From the IMG/VR virus record IMGVR_UViG_3300005663_000211, positions 1 through 22,338 of that record: 22,338 nt of DNA. One strand, written 5' to 3'. The DNA is from a virus. Below, one piece after another: positions 173 to 17,986 of the stretch; within the stretch, counting starts at the first letter, position 1, and each line of letters starts with the position of its first letter. The position numbers were made by a program, and so were the translations under genes. Below the pieces are notes generated by a model. It saw only the letters and a list, made by a program, of their open reading frames with translations. It had not been told where the DNA came from and searched no databases.

Positions 173-553
173 TTAAGAGGCTGTAAGTGCCGCTATTCCT
201 TGAAACGCAAAAGTTGCCCTGGCTACATCATCCGTTCCGTTAGACATCGAAACGCCGGTACAAATAGCATTACCGGCCCAATCAAGTCCGTCCGTCGTAT
301 CAAGGCCAAGGGCTGCTGTAGTCCCGAGCGCAGCCAAGCCGGCACCCGCTACCGGAAGTACGGCCTCAACCGTTGCTGTCCAGTCTTTGTACCCGGCTAA
401 ATAAGACTTCCAATGCGTTGCGGAGGTTACGGCTGCCGAGTTCAAAATCGTACTTTCCGCCGTGTCAGCCGTTGCGTCTACCGTGAAGGACGTGATCTCG
501 AAAGTTAGACCTGTAAAATCCACAATTCCACGTCGCCCGTGAAGAGCTGCCAT
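173..553 (-). CDS. Small tail-tube-like (major tail) protein
   Basis: A 126-aa protein, ATG start at 551-553 with a TTAAGGAG ribosome site. It is rich in Thr, Ala and Ser with alternating beta-type segments such as GLTFEITSFTVDATAD and ARATFAFQGIAAL, and has no transmembrane segment or Cys cluster. It follows the tail terminator gene directly, which is where the tail tube protein sits in HK97- and lambda-like siphophages. Small tube proteins of the TP901-1 type have a comparable length and strand-rich make-up. A paralogous copy starts 14 bases downstream (1-159). The assignment rests on position, length and composition; a decoration protein or domain of the tail tube is an alternative. Confidence 0.7.
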   Translation of the reverse strand: MAALHGRRGIVDFTGLTFEITSFTVDATADTAESTILNSAAVTSATHWKSYLAGYKDWTATVEAVLPVAGAGLAALGTTAALGLDTTDGLDWAGNAICTGVSMSNGTDDVARATFAFQGIAALTAS

Positions 554-574
554 AATAAAACTCCTTAAAGAAAA

Positions 575-982
575 TTAACTTTGAAAACTTAGTTCGTAAG
601 TAATTGACACCTGCCAAATTTCATCCACATACAAAACAGGCATAATCGCCTGTCTCTGCATTTTTATTCTGCTGTAACCGTCAACGTGAATCTCGGCCCA
701 GTGATAAGCGTTATCTAATATCTCCGATACCGAAGCTATGGACGCCCCGCCGTCCTGGGAGTCAGTAAATATATTAAACTGCAAATCCACGTCTATAATG
801 CTGTTCTTGAAAGTCGCATCCATAATCTCCTCATGGGATGCACCTATAAAATAGAATACCGCATAGGGAAAAGAAACATCCTGGGGAGCCTGCTGAAAGA
901 ACAACCCGCCCGCCAACGCATCTTTAAGCGTAGTCGATTTGTTATAATGCTGCGTTATAGCTCTTGCAACGGGGGCTATCAT
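575..982 (-). CDS. Tail terminator / tail completion protein (DUF3168, HK97 gp11-like)
   Basis: A 135-aa protein of the size and pattern of the DUF3168 tail-terminator family. An N-terminal helix (MIAPVARAITQHYN) precedes a segment AVFYFIGASHEEIMD, followed by alternating strands DVDLQFNIFTD and WQVSITYELSF near the C-terminus, which is the usual ending of this family. Such proteins cap the tail tube and form the ring that joins tail to head. The ATG overlaps the stop of the gp10-like gene in an ATGA, so the two are translationally coupled. The tail-tube-like genes follow. Position between gp10-like and tube genes matches the HK97/lambda order, which supports the call. Confidence 0.8.
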   Translation of the reverse strand: MIAPVARAITQHYNKSTTLKDALAGGLFFQQAPQDVSFPYAVFYFIGASHEEIMDATFKNSIIDVDLQFNIFTDSQDGGASIASVSEILDNAYHWAEIHVDGYSRIKMQRQAIMPVLYVDEIWQVSITYELSFQS

Positions 983-1398
983 TTATTCGCTTCCTTAAAT
1001 ATCTTGACTACTTTTTTGCGCGTTCTATGTAACGCTGGTCTTAAAAACGGCCTCGGCTGCATCTTGCTCGTTCCCATCTCTAAGTAAAAACCATACTCCA
1101 CATTAGTGCCCACCGGGGCCTTGGCCGCGATATGCTCTACGTCCGGGCCAACCTTCCCCGTTACATTCGTGCCAGACTTTACAACCTCAGACATCATCGA
1201 CGCCCGCAAAACCCCTGTGTCTATCGCAGGCGGTTCGCCTGGCCTGCTGGCCGTATGCTTGCCGTATTGCCTGCCCTGGCCCTGCAATGTAAAGTTCTGC
1301 TTTACATCGGATTCGACCAATAAAGCAGCCTTGTGCATAGCCGTCACATTGGCCTCGGTCGCCAGCGTAAAAACACGATTTCCAAACCATTTAATCAT
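979..1398 (-). CDS. HK97 gp10-family head-tail joining protein
   Basis: A 139-aa protein with the hallmark C-terminal signature of the HK97 gp10 family: VGTNVEYGFYLEMGTSKMQ followed by PRPFLRPAL, close to the family pattern Y..ylE.GT....aRPFLrPA. A long N-terminal helix and a basic C-terminal tail (HRTRKKVVKIFKEANK) are also typical. The protein belongs to the neck module that joins the head to the tail. The start is ATG at 1396-1398, with only a weak upstream GGTG as ribosome site. The stop overlaps the start of the tail terminator gene by 4 bases. Confidence 0.88.
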   Translation of the reverse strand: MIKWFGNRVFTLATEANVTAMHKAALLVESDVKQNFTLQGQGRQYGKHTASRPGEPPAIDTGVLRASMMSEVVKSGTNVTGKVGPDVEHIAAKAPVGTNVEYGFYLEMGTSKMQPRPFLRPALHRTRKKVVKIFKEANK

Positions 1399-1449
1399 CT
1401 AAAACACACCATAACAAAATCAACAACAACGCAATTATTGCCAGTTTCG

Positions 1450-1797
1450 TTAAACTATCTCCAACATTTCAATTCTTAAATGCCTGTCAAGTAAACCGGG
1501 GTTGTCAATTCCTTTGACCTGAAACGTCCTCGTCCCTAAAGTTACCCTATCGCTTGCCTCAATAGCCTTATTGGTGCTCGAAGCATCGCAATACAATACT
1601 AAACCCTGTCGTAACGTCATTTTCCCAAACTCGTTAGACTCGGCGTAAGCCGACCGCCGCCTAATGTCCATAGAAGTAACCCTGCAAAGCAGTGAAGTAA
1701 TCCTCGTGGAATACGAGCGCGATACGCCGCCCATCGAGTTCTTGCTCTGGCTCTCTTGCGTAACTGCTACGGTCGAGTTGTAAAAGTCCTGAATCAA
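1450..1797 (-). CDS. Head closure / head-tail adaptor protein
   Basis: A 115-aa protein starting MIQDFYNSTVAVTQ, with a polar middle SKNSMGGVSRSYSTR and ending LDRHLRIEMLEIV. Length, beta-barrel-like pattern and position between the gp6-like connector and gp10-like gene match the phage head-tail adaptor family (SPP1 gp16-like, Phage_H_T_join). In that family the protein closes the connector channel. The start appears to be TTG at 1795-1797: an AAGGAA ribosome site lies about 9 bases upstream, the frame has a stop just before it, and the nearby ATG is out of frame and terminates after two codons. The non-ATG start is unusual but well constrained. Confidence 0.78.
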   Translation of the reverse strand: MIQDFYNSTVAVTQESQSKNSMGGVSRSYSTRITSLLCRVTSMDIRRRSAYAESNEFGKMTLRQGLVLYCDASSTNKAIEASDRVTLGTRTFQVKGIDNPGLLDRHLRIEMLEIV

Positions 1798-1820
1798 GTC
1801 ATTTGTTCCTTTTTTTTAAA

Positions 1821-2951
1821 TTAGCACGCAAGTCGCCACTTCATATATGGTGCCAGCCTCTTGGCGATATGTGTCGGTAAATCACGTGCCCCACCGCCGC
1901 CTTCTTTGGAATATTTAACATAGTGGTCGCCCAGCTTTTCGGCCTCAACTGTCGAGTCTGTTGTCCGGCTCTTATAATATACGTTTACTAAATCAAGGCA
2001 AATTTGAATCAAGTCGTCAGGCATTGTTGAATAGCCCGCTGCGTAACTGACGATTATATTCTGATAGCCGATAGGAAATCCGGTTGCTAAATATATCCCG
2101 CCCCTTTTCGTATAAACTTTAAAGTCATACTCCGGCTCGTCCGGGGCCTGCACGTAAGCATAGCTGTCGTGGGCCTCAAGCCCGGAGCATGGCAAGAGTT
2201 CCTCAGCATTCCATACGCCATAGGCAGATAATTGCAAAGTTGCTGTCCAGCCCGTCAGGGCTTCTATGGCCGCCACCAGAGTCGTCAATGTATAATCTGT
2301 CAAGGTAATGGTGTTTGAGCCATCGTCCGTTCCGCCTTTGATTGTTAGGATCATGGACGTACTATTCACCCGCACGTAAGCATTGTAAGCGTCCGTGCTG
2401 GTATTTTTCAACTGGACAACATCCGTGGAACCGATGGACAGCATCTTGATTTCGGTTATGGGGGATTGATTTAAATACAATTCCGTGTCTCCAGGCCCAT
2501 CGTATCTCTCGCGGTATGTATCATGCTGAAATTTGCGGCCACAATAACTCTCCATAGCCGACGTTGCCCTCAAAACAAGCTGGTCTAATAAAGCGTCGTC
2601 AGTTGTCCCTGAAATGCCTGCGTAGGTTTTATAGGCCGTCTTTGTAGTGATAGCCGCAGAGCCGCCCGCAATTGTGTGGTAGTCGTAATAGGTCGTACTA
2701 TCATAAACCCATTCAATCCAGTAGCCATAAGTATAGCTATTCGGTGATTCGGTAAATGAATAAGTATATGTGCCAGTAGCACTTTTGGTTAAGGCTGTAT
2801 CGGCAACAACAACAACCGTAGAATCCTGCAAGCGGATAATGCCACTGGCGGTAGTGTTCTCGTCTGTAAATGCGGGAACAGCATCCAAGTCAGTCAATAC
2901 ATCATCGACCTTAAACGTCTCTGTAATTACTATAGTTCTAAGTTCTGCCAT
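1821..2951 (-). CDS. gp6-like head-tail connector with an N-terminal beta domain
   Basis: A 376-aa protein. From about residue 110 it shows the phage gp6-like connector signature: KTYAGISGTTDDALLDQLV, ATSAMESYCGRKF, YRERYDGPGDTELYL, then SYAAGYSTMPDDLIQICLDL and a helical C-terminus. This domain forms the ring below the portal. The first 100 residues are an additional beta-rich domain (SATGTYTYSFTESPNSYTYG), and a beta insert follows the SPITEI strand. Typical gp6-like proteins are 100-200 residues, so this one is enlarged. The chosen start is ATG at 2949-2951, one codon inside a longer TTG option. It overlaps the upstream stop in TGATG and has AGGA at good spacing. Confidence 0.85.
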   Translation of the reverse strand: MAELRTIVITETFKVDDVLTDLDAVPAFTDENTTASGIIRLQDSTVVVVADTALTKSATGTYTYSFTESPNSYTYGYWIEWVYDSTTYYDYHTIAGGSAAITTKTAYKTYAGISGTTDDALLDQLVLRATSAMESYCGRKFQHDTYRERYDGPGDTELYLNQSPITEIKMLSIGSTDVVQLKNTSTDAYNAYVRVNSTSMILTIKGGTDDGSNTITLTDYTLTTLVAAIEALTGWTATLQLSAYGVWNAEELLPCSGLEAHDSYAYVQAPDEPEYDFKVYTKRGGIYLATGFPIGYQNIIVSYAAGYSTMPDDLIQICLDLVNVYYKSRTTDSTVEAEKLGDHYVKYSKEGGGGARDLPTHIAKRLAPYMKWRLAC

Positions 2952-13001: not shown

Positions 13002-15971
13002 TCAAACTCCTTCTAATATTGGCACGATAGTACAACGGCAGTTATGACTTGCAATCCCGTTGCTAATGTAGTACGATTCAGTTGTTTGAAAATTGTAAAC
13101 ATAGTCTTCATAAGAAAGGGTTTTGGTATGTATAATTCTATCTCGGAAAAAACTATTAGAACGATTGCCAAATTGTACCGAACTGGATGGTCTGAAAACC
13201 GAATCGCTAAGCACTTCGGGTTCAGCCGTAATTGTATCAGGAAAAGATTGCTCGATTCCAGCATAGTTCCCCGCACTCAAAGCGAAGCCGAAATCCTCAA
13301 ATGGTCGCAAATGCCTGATAACTTGCGTAAGAGACAAGTCGAAGCGGCTCATCAGGCTTCGAAGGGAAGTAAAAAGTCTTGGGAATCGAAGTGCAATCGC
13401 GCTCAGACTATCGAACAGCGACCTTCCGGATTCTCTCGTCTCGAATTGAGACTCCAGCAAATGCTTAAAATTCGCGGCATTGATACTATTCACCAAAAAG
13501 CTATCGGTCCCTACAATTGCGACCTTGCTGCCGAGGCCGTCGCCATGGAAGTCTGGGGCGGTCATTGGCACTTCTTCGGTAACCACGCCCGGATTTGCGA
13601 AGAACGTTTCCGCTATATCCTTAGCCAAGGCTGGTTTATTTACGTCTGCCCAATCACTAAATCTTCGCCCCTTACTGACGCTGTCGCTAACTACATAGTC
13701 TCCTATATCAAGAGCATCCGCAGGAACAAACCCGTTATCCCCGAGTATCGGGTGGTTTGGGGTGGAGATAAATTCTCTGTTAGTGGCCGTCTTGATAATA
13801 TGAACTTTCCCATTGTACCACCTTTTACTTGCCGCCGTAATCCGGCCAACGGGCAATACGAGACTATCGCCAGATAAACACATACAATGAATAGGCGGGT
13901 GGTCTACCTTTTCGTAGGTGAAATCCAATTCCCGCCCGTTCACTTCGTAAGTATCGCCCTTGTCAAAAAAACTCGTATCTATTCCGATTATTGCACCGTC
14001 CATATCCAAACACCAATCGCAGGTACGCTGGTCGCCGGACGAAATCCATTGCAGCTTTTCAACTATTCCTGATTGCTTATAGCCCTGCCTGGCCCCTTCG
14101 TTCCACGCCCATATCGTCTCGGTCCGGGCAACCCGCTCGGCCCCAAACCTTGACAGGCCCTCGAAGACCTCTGAAACCCTCTTGCGTAAATCCGGTATCC
14201 CCTCGCCCTCGGCCATGCCCGCTGATAATTTCTCTCGCAGGTTCTTAACGATTGTGGAATTGACCGAATTAATACTACCGTATCTGTGTTCTGACAGTGC
14301 CCTCACCACGCCCGGGTTCATGGGGTCGAACTGTGTTACCGAGGTTAATTGTCGCAAGTGCTGCTCGCCGCCGGCCATCATAGTAAACCTGATAAAAGGC
14401 TCGCTTGTAGTCCATAGCTCGCCGTTCCATTTTTGCATATCGAACCAGGCTGTCATGTAATCGTCTGCAGACGATTTTACGGCTTTTGCCAAGTCTCGGT
14501 CGAATCCCTCCAGGACCACATCGGCTACGCGGTTGTAATAATCACGGATCGCTTTAACAAAAGGCTCGTCAATGAAATTGGTCGGGTGATTCAACGACGG
14601 TAAGCCCCGGGGGGCCTTTATCCCCTTTTCCGGCTTCGGTGCCATAAGTTGCGGTGTAGGCAACTCTGTACTCAGCGGCCTCATGTTCATAGGCATAATC
14701 GGCTCGTCGCCCCATTCAACCTCGTCAAGGCCGTCCTGTTGACGCTCCTCGTTAATGCTGGTCATACCCGTCGTTAATCGGTCTTTGATTTCCTTCAACC
14801 GATACTCTTTATCTTCCGGTACGGGATTGTCAAACGCGCAAAACAAACGTGTGTCGTACATCGGCAATAGCTTTTCGTTCATCTTCTGCTCGGCCCTGCG
14901 TGTCCTGGGCAGGATAGTATTTTTCATATATGAATACTCGCCCGTCTCTGCATTGGCCCTGTTTACGCTTTCGGTAGTCAGCATGGACAAAGGCACGCCA
15001 AATATAGCCGCTATTTCTTCACGCGTAGCCTTGCGGCCCTGCAAAAACGACATCTCTTTCGGGGTAAGTGATATGGGCTTCAATTCGGCCCCGCCGGTTA
15101 AGACTGCCAGCTTGCCGGTGTTCTTGACGCCCCGGAACTTCTGAAACCATTTCTTCTCGATACGCTTTATCTCGTCTGCAGGTGGCGCTGCTGCCTCCGG
15201 GGGCAATATCAACGCCATGTCCGGCCTTGCCCTGTTAGCGAACAGCGTAGACTCGAACGTATTCATGTTGTTACTCAAATCAGCAGCTACGACCGCCGCC
15301 TGCAAAGGCCCTATACCGTAAAACGCGTCTTGCGGGTTGATATACTTGAAGTGGACTATATTTGCTGGGTCTATGATATGCTTCTCTGCCTCTGTAATTA
15401 CAAACTCGTACTTGGCTATGAACCGCCTTTTGTCGGGTATTATCCTGACATACTGCGAGTACAGCGGCCAAATCTCGTTAGGCACACCCAGCTTATTGTC
15501 CCTGCTGATGTGCCAGTAGGCATTGCCGCAAAGCTCCTGAAACAAGAACATCAACTCCAAAAGGTCGAACTGGTTGGTAAAATCGTTGACGCTTTTGAGC
15601 AGATTCAAAAAAGGGTGCTCGACAACTTCCTCGATTTCCTCTGCTTTCCTGACGTAATTGAAAGTTGAAGGTGATTTCGCCAGATACGCTAATCGTTTCG
15701 GTTCTACCCTGCGAGTCGGGAACAACGCCTTTGTCTTGCGGGCTGGCTTGGCCGCATACAGCCGCAAAGGTATCTGGGCACAGCTAATCGCGTTTTTCGA
15801 GGCACAGGTGTAAACCCATGAACTATACCGCTTGACAAGCTCCTTGTACGATACATCGGGGTAATAAGCCTTGCCGGACTGGTAGTTGGTGATATTCCAG
15901 CCGCCCACCTTGGCCATCTTCGCTATGAACTTGTCAATGAGCCTATCTTCAAGCCGGGTAATGAGACCCAC
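13002..15971 (-). CDS. Portal protein fused to MuF/SPP1 gp7-like head morphogenesis domain, interrupted by an intein
   Basis: A 989-aa precursor. Residues 1 to about 430 are an HK97-type portal: KRYSSWVYTCASKNAISCAQ, GNAYWHISRDNKLGVPNEIW, VHFKYINPQDAFYGIGPLQA, EIAAIFGVPLSMLTTES. From about 470 to 697 is a MuF domain: GAERVARTETIWAWNEGARQ, WISSGDQRTCDWCLDMDG, then HPPIHCM. An intein occupies residues 698-977. The last 12 residues, CRCTIVPILEGV, complete the MuF motif HPPIHCM-CRCTIVP. Spliced length is 709 aa. The portal is the dodecameric DNA gate and MuF-type proteins enter with the DNA or aid head assembly; they are usually separate genes. The start is GTG at 15969-15971 with AAGGAG six bases away. 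Cys 651/654, His 691/695 and the CMCRC cysteines look like a zinc site that is completed only after splicing. Confidence 0.93.
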   Translation of the reverse strand: MGLITRLEDRLIDKFIAKMAKVGGWNITNYQSGKAYYPDVSYKELVKRYSSWVYTCASKNAISCAQIPLRLYAAKPARKTKALFPTRRVEPKRLAYLAKSPSTFNYVRKAEEIEEVVEHPFLNLLKSVNDFTNQFDLLELMFLFQELCGNAYWHISRDNKLGVPNEIWPLYSQYVRIIPDKRRFIAKYEFVITEAEKHIIDPANIVHFKYINPQDAFYGIGPLQAAVVAADLSNNMNTFESTLFANRARPDMALILPPEAAAPPADEIKRIEKKWFQKFRGVKNTGKLAVLTGGAELKPISLTPKEMSFLQGRKATREEIAAIFGVPLSMLTTESVNRANAETGEYSYMKNTILPRTRRAEQKMNEKLLPMYDTRLFCAFDNPVPEDKEYRLKEIKDRLTTGMTSINEERQQDGLDEVEWGDEPIMPMNMRPLSTELPTPQLMAPKPEKGIKAPRGLPSLNHPTNFIDEPFVKAIRDYYNRVADVVLEGFDRDLAKAVKSSADDYMTAWFDMQKWNGELWTTSEPFIRFTMMAGGEQHLRQLTSVTQFDPMNPGVVRALSEHRYGSINSVNSTIVKNLREKLSAGMAEGEGIPDLRKRVSEVFEGLSRFGAERVARTETIWAWNEGARQGYKQSGIVEKLQWISSGDQRTCDWCLDMDGAIIGIDTSFFDKGDTYEVNGRELDFTYEKVDHPPIHCMCLSGDSLVLPVGRITAASKRWYNGKVHIIKTATNREFISTPNHPILGDNGFVPADALDIGDYVVSDSVSKGRRFSDWADVNKPALAKDIAETFFANPGVVTEEVPMTAPDFHGDGLGSKVAIVGTDSFLVNSINAANFKHLLESQFETRESGRSLFDSLSAIALRFPRLFTSLRSLMSRFDLSLTQVIRHLRPFEDFGFALSAGNYAGIEQSFPDTITAEPEVLSDSVFRPSSSVQFGNRSNSFFRDRIIHTKTLSYEDYVYNFQTTESYYISNGIASHNCRCTIVPILEGV
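13112..13120 (+). promoter_or_regulatory. Ribosome binding site of the antisense endonuclease gene
   Basis: AAGAAAGGG lies seven bases before ATG 13128 on the plus strand, a good Shine-Dalgarno match in the only plus-strand gene. On the other strand these bases are codons of the intein's TLSYED segment next to block F. It decides the start at 13128 over the in-frame ATG at 13044, which has no such site. Confidence 0.7.
13128..13877 (+). CDS. Vsr/EDxHD-like homing endonuclease, antisense inside the intein
   Basis: A 249-aa protein on the plus strand, the only such gene here. Residues 5-45 form a helix-turn-helix (WSENRIAKHFGFSRNCIRKR). A basic linker leads to a nuclease core at about 100-175: RLELRLQQML (Glu106), IHQKAIGPYNCDLA (Asp132), AMEVWGGHWHFFG (Glu141, His146, His148), then RFRYILSQGWFIYVC. 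The D...E-V-x-G-G-x-W-H layout is that of Vsr-type PD-(D/E)XK nucleases, the fold of the EDxHD homing endonucleases of phage introns and split inteins. The C-terminus has EYRVVWGG. The frame is in codon register with the intein: residue n lies opposite intein residue 252-n, and the TAA stop opposite intein Leu2. The protein would cut intein-less portal genes and promote copying of the element. No convincing own promoter is seen. Confidence 0.88.
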   Translation: MYNSISEKTIRTIAKLYRTGWSENRIAKHFGFSRNCIRKRLLDSSIVPRTQSEAEILKWSQMPDNLRKRQVEAAHQASKGSKKSWESKCNRAQTIEQRPSGFSRLELRLQQMLKIRGIDTIHQKAIGPYNCDLAAEAVAMEVWGGHWHFFGNHARICEERFRYILSQGWFIYVCPITKSSPLTDAVANYIVSYIKSIRRNKPVIPEYRVVWGGDKFSVSGRLDNMNFPIVPPFTCRRNPANGQYETIAR

Positions 15972-16024: not shown

Positions 16025-16246
16025 TTAAAACTTGTCTGTGATTTGAGAATCGAGGCCGATATGGTAACGCATTGTTGCTATATGGCCGTTTTGGGGAAAT
16101 AAATGAGGATTTGTTTTTTTTAATCGGTTTACCAAATAATTCACGTTTCGGCGAGTACAGCCCATAAGTTTAGCCGCCTCGCTATACGAGCATTGGTGGA
16201 TAAATACGAATCGGTAAGCGTCAATCTGTTGAGGTGTGGGTTTCAT
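16025..16246 (-). CDS. Small helix-turn-helix protein (73 aa)
   Basis: A 73-aa protein dominated by an HTH: TPQQIDAYRFVFIHQCSYSE, then AAKLMGCTRRNVNYLVNRLK, which resembles sigma-70 region 4 or YlxM-type DNA-binding helices. The recognition helix would be CTRRNVNYLVNRL. ATG at 16244-16246 with GCGGAG upstream; it overlaps the end of the ParB-methyltransferase gene by 26 bases, so the two are coupled. A 54-base gap separates it from the portal GTG. It could regulate late genes or act as an additional packaging HTH; the sequence does not decide. Confidence 0.72.
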   Translation of the reverse strand: MKPTPQQIDAYRFVFIHQCSYSEAAKLMGCTRRNVNYLVNRLKKTNPHLFPQNGHIATMRYHIGLDSQITDKF

Positions 16247-17465
16247 CTAACTCCGCTTTTTTACCTGTGTAATCCTTCCACCGCTTGATTATTACATCGC
16301 AATAGTGCTCGTCTATCTCCATGCCGTAACATCGGCGGTTTAACTTCTCGCAGGCTATTAGGGTTGTGCCGGAACCGAGGAAGAAATCGAGAACGGTCTG
16401 ATTCCTTTTGCTTGAATTTCCTATGCCTTTAGCACATAAAGCAATTGGTTTCATTGTTGGATGTTCTTTGCTTTGTTTGGGTCTTGGTATTTCCCAAACA
16501 GTATCTTGTGTATGGTCATCAGTGAAATAATGAGCCGCACCAATCTTCCATCCATAAATAATCGGCTCATGCCTCCAGTGGTAATCTTGTCTTCCGAACG
16601 CAAATTGGTCTTTTGCCCAGATTATTATCTCTGCTGGTTTGAATCCTGATTCTGCAAAAGCAGTTCTGAAAATCACATCCATGCCGAGTCCCTCGGCATG
16701 GCATACATATATAACCGCTCCAGCTTTAATATTGTTATAGTATAAGCCAAAAACAGTAAGAAGAAATATTCTTAATTTTTCACCTACCAAATCATCATTC
16801 TGGACAATTTTGCCATCTGTCCTTCTATTCCTCTTTTTCAAATCTTCTTTAGTTCCCTGATTAACAGCCACCCCATACGGCGGGTCAGTAAACACCATAT
16901 CTGCCTTCACACCGCCCATCAGTCGCTCCACGTTGGCCTGTAGCCTGCAATCGCTACATAATAGCCTATGATTGCCGAGAATCCACAAATCGCCCTCTTT
17001 GCAGACAGGTGGCGGAGATTCGGGGATTACATCGTCATCGTCTCGCTGCGGCTGCCCAAACGTCTCCGGGGCAATCTCCTCAATCTCGTCCAACGAGAAG
17101 CCCGTCAAGTCCAAATCCACGTTAAGCTGGTCGAACTCTACCAGTAAATCAGCCAGCTTCGGGAAGTCCCACTCGGCGTTCTCTACGCTCTTGTTATCAA
17201 ATATCGAATATACCCTCGCGTCCGTCTCGTCAAGGTCAAGGAATATTACCGGGGCTTTCTTCTTGCCCATCTTTAATAATGCCTTCACCCGTGTATGGCC
17301 TGCGATAATCTCATTGTTGGCCCGGCGGGCAAGGATAGGGTTGGTATAGCCAAACGCCTCGATGCTCTTGATTACGGCGTCCACGCTCTCGTCGTTCTTG
17401 CGGGGATTGCCCTCGAATGGTTTTAGTTGCCCTATCGGCACGTACTCGATTTTAAGTTGGCTCAT
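16221..17465 (-). CDS. ParB-like domain fused to a DNA N6-adenine/N4-cytosine methyltransferase
   Basis: A 414-aa protein in two parts. Residues 1 to about 120 are a ParB/Srx nuclease-like domain (VPIGQLKPFEGNPRKN, SIEAFGYTNPILARR, EIIAGHTRVKALLKMG). The rest is a DNA amino-methyltransferase: GDLWILGNHRLLCSD, VFTDPPYGVAV with the DPPY catalytic motif at 194-197, and LDFFLGSGTTLIACEKLNRR with the SAM loop at 361-368. The order DPPY before the SAM loop marks the beta class. Such fusions are common in phages and probably protect phage DNA from restriction. The start chosen is ATG 17463-17465 in an ATGA overlap with the upstream gene; a GTG at 17486 is an alternative. No cognate restriction enzyme is seen. 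Confidence 0.9.
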   Translation of the reverse strand: MSQLKIEYVPIGQLKPFEGNPRKNDESVDAVIKSIEAFGYTNPILARRANNEIIAGHTRVKALLKMGKKKAPVIFLDLDETDARVYSIFDNKSVENAEWDFPKLADLLVEFDQLNVDLDLTGFSLDEIEEIAPETFGQPQRDDDDVIPESPPPVCKEGDLWILGNHRLLCSDCRLQANVERLMGGVKADMVFTDPPYGVAVNQGTKEDLKKRNRRTDGKIVQNDDLVGEKLRIFLLTVFGLYYNNIKAGAVIYVCHAEGLGMDVIFRTAFAESGFKPAEIIIWAKDQFAFGRQDYHWRHEPIIYGWKIGAAHYFTDDHTQDTVWEIPRPKQSKEHPTMKPIALCAKGIGNSSKRNQTVLDFFLGSGTTLIACEKLNRRCYGMEIDEHYCDVIIKRWKDYTGKKAELDETHTSTD

Positions 17466-17986
17466 TCCTTTACCCCCGTAGCCCACATATTAGTATCATC
17501 ACCGTCACAGGTGACGTTTGCAAATCCTGCCGCCTGCATCTTGCCCATCAACGTCCCCGGCGTAAAACCCGTCTTATGCACCTGGTGGGGATTATCCTTA
17601 GTGAATTTACGCAGGCCGAAGATGCAATCTATCGCAGCGATAGGCCCAGCCGGTGATTCGTACAGTGTATCCTCAAGATTGCCTTTTGCAACTTCAGCCG
17701 CTACTGTCTGCAAGTTGGGCGCGCCGATACATAACAACCCGCCGGGCTTGAGCACTCGGTAAAACTCAGACAAAGCCTTCGGTACTTCAAAATCAAATAG
17801 GTGCTCAAGGTTATGGTTGGAATATACCGAGTCTACCGATTCTGTCAGGACCACGGGCATGTCCCGAATATCGCCGACAATATCAGGCTTAACGCAGGGG
17901 TCTATGTCCAGGCGGATTTCCTTCCAACCTGCGTATTGCTGGTGTATAGGGACGCCGCCGGAACCTACGTTAAGGACGGTTTTCAT
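17462..17986 (-). CDS. Class I SAM-dependent methyltransferase (Methyltransf_11 type)
   Basis: A 174-aa protein with a full SAM-binding core: VLNVGSGG (residues 4-11), KEIRLDIDPCVKPDIVGDIR, SVYSNHNLEHLFDFEV (about 53-68) and EFYRVLKPGGLLCIGAPN, the classic post-motif of the family. The C-terminus has KTGFTPGTLMGKMQAAGF. Enzymes of this kind methylate small molecules, lipids, sugars or nucleotides; the substrate cannot be inferred. It is coupled by ATGA overlaps both to the basic peptide gene before it and to the ParB-methyltransferase after it, so the three are translated together. ATG 17984-17986 with GGGGA upstream. Confidence 0.85.
   Translation of the reverse strand: MKTVLNVGSGGVPIHQQYAGWKEIRLDIDPCVKPDIVGDIRDMPVVLTESVDSVYSNHNLEHLFDFEVPKALSEFYRVLKPGGLLCIGAPNLQTVAAEVAKGNLEDTLYESPAGPIAAIDCIFGLRKFTKDNPHQVHKTGFTPGTLMGKMQAAGFANVTCDGDDTNMWATGVKE

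Follow-up and report, generated by a model that had tools for sequence, protein, structure and literature searches.

A phage intein inserted in a capsid gene was found to carry, on the opposite strand of the same codons, a gene for a nuclease related to a known homing endonuclease. The window (the whole stretch analysed, 22,338 nucleotides) is a 22-kb virus record whose minus strand carries the head-gene cluster. The layout is not peculiar to this phage but belongs to a widespread family, with the nested pair present in about 140 distinct lineages from Salmonella to Gordonia phages, and both frames are under selection. Judging from the sequence comparisons presented here, it is very probable that the pair constitutes a mobile (homing) intein with its endonuclease encoded antisense within it. 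The features are as follows.

13002..15971, minus strand: host gene, fused portal-MuF with intein, 989 aa (Pfam Phage_portal 3.5e-59, Phage_Mu_F 4.4e-12)
13041..13880, minus strand: intein, 280 aa, from Cys1 to His279-Asn280, with Cys+1 at 13038-13040 (Intein_splicing 4.2e-9; aligned with 27 relatives)
13677..13880, minus strand: Hint N-terminal part, intein residues 1-68, facing the nuclease C-terminal tail (model pLDDT about 90)
13749..13763, minus strand: block B, TPNHP, antisense of nuclease RVVWG (sequence, alignment)
13539..13553, minus strand: motif DFHGD, intein residues 110-114, antisense of nuclease V-A-M-E-V around putative catalytic Glu141 (Phe codon TTC in 27/27)
13161..13487, minus strand: intein middle, residues 132-240, predicted disordered, a near-pure shadow of the nuclease (pLDDT under 50 over most of it)
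13083..13106, minus strand: block F, DYVYNFQT (codon analysis)
13041..13067, minus strand: block G, ISNGIASHN (sequence, alignment)
13128..13877, plus strand: nested nuclease gene, 249 aa, ATG at 13128, stop TAA at 13875-13877 (3R3P 6.3e-6; AlphaFold pLDDT 89)
13112..13120, plus strand: weak ribosome-binding-like site AAGAAAGGG before ATG 13128 (sequence)
13146..13256, plus strand: predicted helix-turn-helix, nuclease residues 7-43 (HTH_23 5.2e-4; model helices; GcrA/Tc3 HTH matches)
13428..13727, plus strand: predicted catalytic domain, nuclease residues 101-200, Vsr/I-Bth0305I fold (structure comparison)
13443-13445, 13521-13523 and 13548-13550, plus strand: putative catalytic acids Glu106, Asp132 and Glu141, respectively (conservation in 141 nonredundant sequences)

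The intein occupies residues 698-977 of the host protein and is followed by a C-extein of 12 residues; the whole minus-strand ORF (13002-15971) also matches Intein_splicing among the Pfam profiles (4.1e-8). The window, L001 and L002 have portal and MuF in a single fused ORF, and the two are separate genes in most of the intein-bearing isolate phages examined. Adjoining the terminase and head genes is a DNA methyltransferase with an N-terminal ParB-like domain (16221-17486, minus strand).

In the register used, intein codons read as their reverse complements give the nuclease codons one for one, so that codon position 1 lies opposite position 3. The earliest ATG of the plus-strand ORF is at 13044 and the likely start at 13128, which leaves the last 29 intein codons (13041-13127) upstream of the gene. 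Its TAA stop is the antisense of intein Leu2, which puts the end of the nuclease gene at the border of the mobile unit, with the whole reading frame inside it. The sequence-only reading had the two genes sharing every base; the nesting was borne out, while the nuclease gene (750 bp including the stop) covers 89% of the 840-bp intein.

By sequence and predicted structure, the plus-strand protein has a Vsr/EDxHD fold with acidic catalytic residues. The family profile matches the homing endonuclease I-Bth0305I (3R3P, 6.3e-6), and among 28 members Pfam MTES_1575 was matched by 20 (best 1.7e-10), DUF559 by eight and Vsr by five. The AlphaFold model (mean pLDDT 89) retrieved I-Bth0305I as its top Foldseek match (probability 1.00), and structural comparison gave Z 11.7 with Vsr (112 residues, 2.3 A) and Z 10.3 with I-Bth0305I, the matches spanning about 100 residues. 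Among 141 nonredundant nucleases, Glu106 is kept in 135, Asp132 in 138 and Glu141 in 137. The His of the WH that follows the nuclease core is present in only 81 of the 141, and for the strict EDxHD class the comparison covered the match to the 3R3P profile. A 249-residue Vsr/EDxHD-like nuclease with a helix-turn-helix and this core motif had been proposed from the window alone, and the nuclease homologues whose absence would have spoken against it (I-Bth0305I, MTES_1575 and Vsr-fold proteins) were all found. In one locus (L072, 2501-3178) the antisense frame is open, with the catalytic Asp replaced by Pro and Glu by Gln; this is probably a decaying nuclease, a natural dead copy.

The minus-strand product is an intein by sequence and by predicted fold. 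Intein_splicing was matched by 27 of the 28 family members, the window's own match (4.2e-9) exceeding the profile cutoff, and the family profile matched solved intein structures (1.5e-10). The AlphaFold model shows two confident Hint halves separated by a disordered middle, and inteins were its top Foldseek matches. Between the intein blocks, where disorder is predicted, no nuclease family among the Pfam profiles was matched by the intein polypeptide. By its residues the window's copy also belongs with the inteins, as Cys1, TPNH, the terminal His-Asn and Cys+1 are present and the insert is in frame with the host gene. The intact intein first noticed at 13041-13880 (Cys1, T-x-x-H, His-Asn, Cys+1) was thus confirmed by the profile match, and the structure predictions that had been called for returned a Vsr-type nuclease fold on one strand and confident Hint halves on the other. 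With the splicing residues intact, the portal-MuF precursor would be expected to undergo protein splicing.

Long antisense frames must be interpreted with caution. The register is prone to them, and the nuclease ORF could in principle be a chance shadow of the intein and no gene at all. In a control, ordinary Hint proteins at high GC often had open in-register antisense frames by chance, and openness alone is thus no evidence for the GC-rich relatives. Given host codon use, an antisense frame free of stops had a probability of 10^-6.3 in the window and, taken over 26 loci together, of 10^-111. A count of antisense stops gave none, against about 210 expected. More discriminating was a resampling approach in which one protein was held fixed and codons were redrawn from host-gene usage, a procedure that ignores dinucleotide effects. 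For pairs under 30% identity, antisense nuclease identity was 0.259 with the intein fixed, against 0.153 expected (z 76), and intein identity was 0.222 with the nuclease fixed, against 0.154 expected (z 48). Both frames depart from expectation by tens of standard deviations.

Individual residues and codons tell the same story. Asn130 and Tyr129 of the nuclease are conserved at 1.00 and 0.95, far above the levels of 0.25 and 0.16 that the intein would impose. The Phe codon of DFHGD is TTC, which provides the catalytic Glu on the other strand, in 27 of 27 members (expected 15.1, P 7e-9). Block F reads GHVYNLQT in many relatives, and its antisense there is the nuclease Shine-Dalgarno sequence and ATG. 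In 22/24 the His of block F is encoded by CAT, which gives the nuclease ATG (P 4e-8), and in 20/23 the Leu of this block by CTC, which gives GAG of the ribosome site (P 8e-13). These choices at block F and DFHGD are explained only by an antisense gene. Substitutions also track the nuclease frame: in close pairs, extein changes fall mostly at codon position 3 and intein changes mostly at position 1, which is nuclease position 3. Counts at positions 1/2/3 for the pair L015/L016 were 14/1/6 in the intein and 23/8/112 in the extein, and for the intein middle region 276/67/131. Together with the nuclease homology in sequence and fold, and with an Acinetobacter phage that carries the nuclease without an intein, these observations leave the chance reading a negligible probability; a chance open frame was rejected by the codon tests.

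The window's own ribosome site AAGAAAGGG, which the sequence-only reading had listed, is weak and no better than codon-resampled controls (P 0.31). Support for such a site comes from the relatives, many of which carry GGAGGT directly 5' of the nuclease ATG, and from the codon choice in block F. A search for an antisense promoter gave nothing convincing, with three promoter-like matches against 2.4 expected.

It could conversely be argued that only the nuclease is a genuine gene, the intein being a degenerate shadow that has lost splicing. This has some appeal for the middle of the intein, which is close to a pure shadow and is modelled by AlphaFold with low confidence: over residues 131-240, opposite the helix-turn-helix and the helical part of the nuclease, intein identity was 0.165 against 0.156 with the nuclease fixed. 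It does not hold for the ends. Hint-N, opposite the variable nuclease tail, showed an identity of 0.355 against 0.175, and under nuclease-fixed resampling the conservation of Hint-N (z 54) and of Hint-C (z 34) stood well above expectation. As Cys1, TxxH and the terminal Asn-Cys are retained in nearly all family members, the Hint halves are confidently modelled and the insert lies in frame within a capsid gene, we regard a degenerate intein as very improbable. Both frames are under selection, and the two proteins can share DNA because their essential parts are mostly staggered. The conserved nuclease core and helix-turn-helix face an intein linker predicted to be disordered, Hint-N, which is conserved, faces the variable tail of the nuclease, and block F lies across from the nuclease start or close to it. 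In the DFHGD segment, which pairs with the catalytic strand, both frames are constrained. The intein is conserved there beyond what the nuclease requires (z 19), and disorder is predicted for the region; this excess is not accounted for by the antisense-homing model.

How far the arrangement extends was apparent from database searches. Two near-identical IMG/VR contigs conserve the antisense layout at 65% nuclease and 52% intein identity to the window. Searches by tblastn with either protein returned about 120 phage records each, and at the fetched loci, from phages of Salmonella, E. coli, Klebsiella, Pseudomonas, Vibrio, Haemophilus, Edwardsiella, Gordonia, Mycobacterium and Rhodococcus, the intein and nuclease matches coincide on opposite strands. 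Annotation at these loci consists of the MuF gene alone, except in Acinetobacter phage IME285, whose annotation includes the nuclease ORF. An alignment of 27 diverse nucleases proved too varied for database scans and narrower alignments were used. Scans with the nuclease only gave about 200 loci, and in the last test set an in-register intein was found opposite the nuclease in 161 of 161. The nuclease-ascertained relatives are thus repeatedly antisense within inteins, the point that the sequence-only reading had proposed to check, and homologous inteins in other phages carry the same nuclease instead of antisense frames filled with stops. Clustering at 70% identity gave 141 distinct nucleases, counting IME285 and the HNH protein L074; the lineage counts derive mostly from IMG/VR contigs and are not phylogenetically independent in a strict sense.

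The host gene, assigned from junction sequences and annotation, is MuF nearly everywhere, with insertion at Cys sites. A second host gene, dCMP deaminase, is occupied at its PCxxC motif in two large phages (L030, 2501-3385, and L103, 2315-3634 on the minus strand, from records of 197 kb and 177 kb). A profile scan of genome contigs gave a single locus, in Aggregatibacter, and an intein-profile search of 369 genomes of the same class gave generic Hint matches and one true member. When 398 genomes from the phylum were searched with the nuclease profile, the matches were DUF559/Vsr-type proteins without antisense inteins, indicating that the fold exists independently, and one further nested case (L265). 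Matches of L019 and L074 to the intein profile were rejected as inteins, being shadows. L074 is an HNH endonuclease whose only resemblance to the nuclease family is the SEAExLKWSQM helix-turn-helix region, which may be a swapped DNA-binding module.

Presence and absence of the element vary among close relatives. Between the E. coli phages Snoke and fEg-Eco06 the MuF exteins are 95% and the inteins 27% identical; the family members of these phages sit at two different MuF sites, each of which is empty in the other phage. In Gordonia phages Angelicage and Keitabear, a single site with exteins 99% identical holds inteins 35% identical. A continuous empty site, defined as joined extein flanks giving one unbroken match across 80% or more of their length, was found in 345 of 406 Salmonella/E. 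coli-type records and in 81 of 104 Gordonia records. That close relatives have the site empty indicates mobility, and the combination of such empty sites with a patchy distribution, two MuF sites and a second host gene is the signature of homing.

Phage IME285 (L019) is the sole exception to the association of nuclease family members with antisense inteins. It has an intact intein-less MuF (455-1348, plus strand) and, directly downstream, a convergent free-standing nuclease (1342-2055, minus strand) that overlaps the MuF end. This state may be ancestral, a relic of the route by which the nuclease gene entered, or a later escape. It shows that the nuclease can exist without an intein, and enzymes combining a helix-turn-helix with a nuclease have many roles; both genes might then work while the nuclease serves a purpose other than homing, such as packaging or the exclusion of competing phages, with the nesting reflecting compactness only. 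We consider this unlikely, as the nuclease is otherwise found only inside inteins, the inteins are patchy, with empty alleles in close relatives and insertions at two positions in MuF as well as in dCMP deaminase, and intronless homing would likewise fit a free-standing enzyme next to an empty site.

Under the antisense-homing model, the minus strand would be translated into a portal-MuF precursor from which the Hint domain would excise itself, allowing the capsid gene to tolerate the insert. The plus strand would provide the helix-turn-helix protein with its Vsr/EDxHD-type nuclease. In a mixed infection this enzyme would cut MuF alleles that lack the intein, acting at the conserved Cys-containing site, and repair of the cut would copy intein and nuclease together.

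Large bifunctional inteins combine a Hint domain with an in-frame LAGLIDADG or HNH endonuclease domain. The present elements resemble them in having a Hint domain, an endonuclease coding sequence between blocks B and F, a patchy distribution and empty alleles, but differ in that the endonuclease is a separate polypeptide, on the opposite strand, overlapping the Hint-N codons too. With I-Bth0305I, an EDxHD homing endonuclease deposited as a "mobile intron protein" (3R3P), they share the catalytic fold; that enzyme, however, is intron-encoded and has no overlap with a splicing protein. The fractured genes of phages (Dassa et al., 2009, as cited in PMC12350094) also pair an EDxHD/Vsr-type nuclease with an intein, but there the nuclease gene lies between split-intein halves. 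Such a split layout is absent here, where a continuous intein ORF with a nested antisense gene is found in the window and in its relatives. The ShiLan domain, a "hidden" out-of-frame HNH endonuclease in a phage methylase (PMC11855218), is likewise a homing endonuclease concealed in an alternative frame of an in-frame insert. It differs in its shifted frame, its GTG start inside the host transcript, its HNH type and an insert without a splicing domain, and the elements described here, with the opposite strand, a Vsr fold and an intein, do not belong to that type. An antisense endonuclease within an intein was not found in the literature compared, which leaves aside the survey of actinobacteriophage inteins by Gosselin et al. 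(2025; bioRxiv 10.1101/2025.01.02.630785, "non-canonical architecture"), cited in PMC11855218 for overlapping reading frames in actinobacteriophages; with that exception, we found no earlier description of such double use of DNA.

The new and compact type of selfish element proposed at the outset is upheld by these results, and its layout is widespread. It is likely that we are dealing with an ancient class of mobile inteins, undescribed to date, in which Hint and a Vsr-fold endonuclease, known folds that are unrelated and have separate jobs, would be encoded on two strands of the same codons, with the start, active site and stop of the nuclease fitted into block F, DFHGD and intein codon 2. 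Sense-antisense transcription would perhaps time nuclease expression against the late capsid transcript.

To our knowledge, it is very rare for the two products of a nested antisense pair each to have a recognised fold and a known type of activity, and reports of such pairs are easily dismissed as shadows. Here, the about 140 distinct lineages made strict tests possible, and both frames pass them. Among the carriers of the element are phages whose bacterial hosts are well studied (Salmonella Jersey-type, E. coli Kagunavirus, Gordonia and Pseudomonas phages) and in which the nuclease is unannotated. A selfish element can in this manner carry an endonuclease at almost no cost in DNA, and old questions about the evolution of opposite-strand proteins, the gain of endonucleases by homing inteins and antisense transcription in phages become testable.
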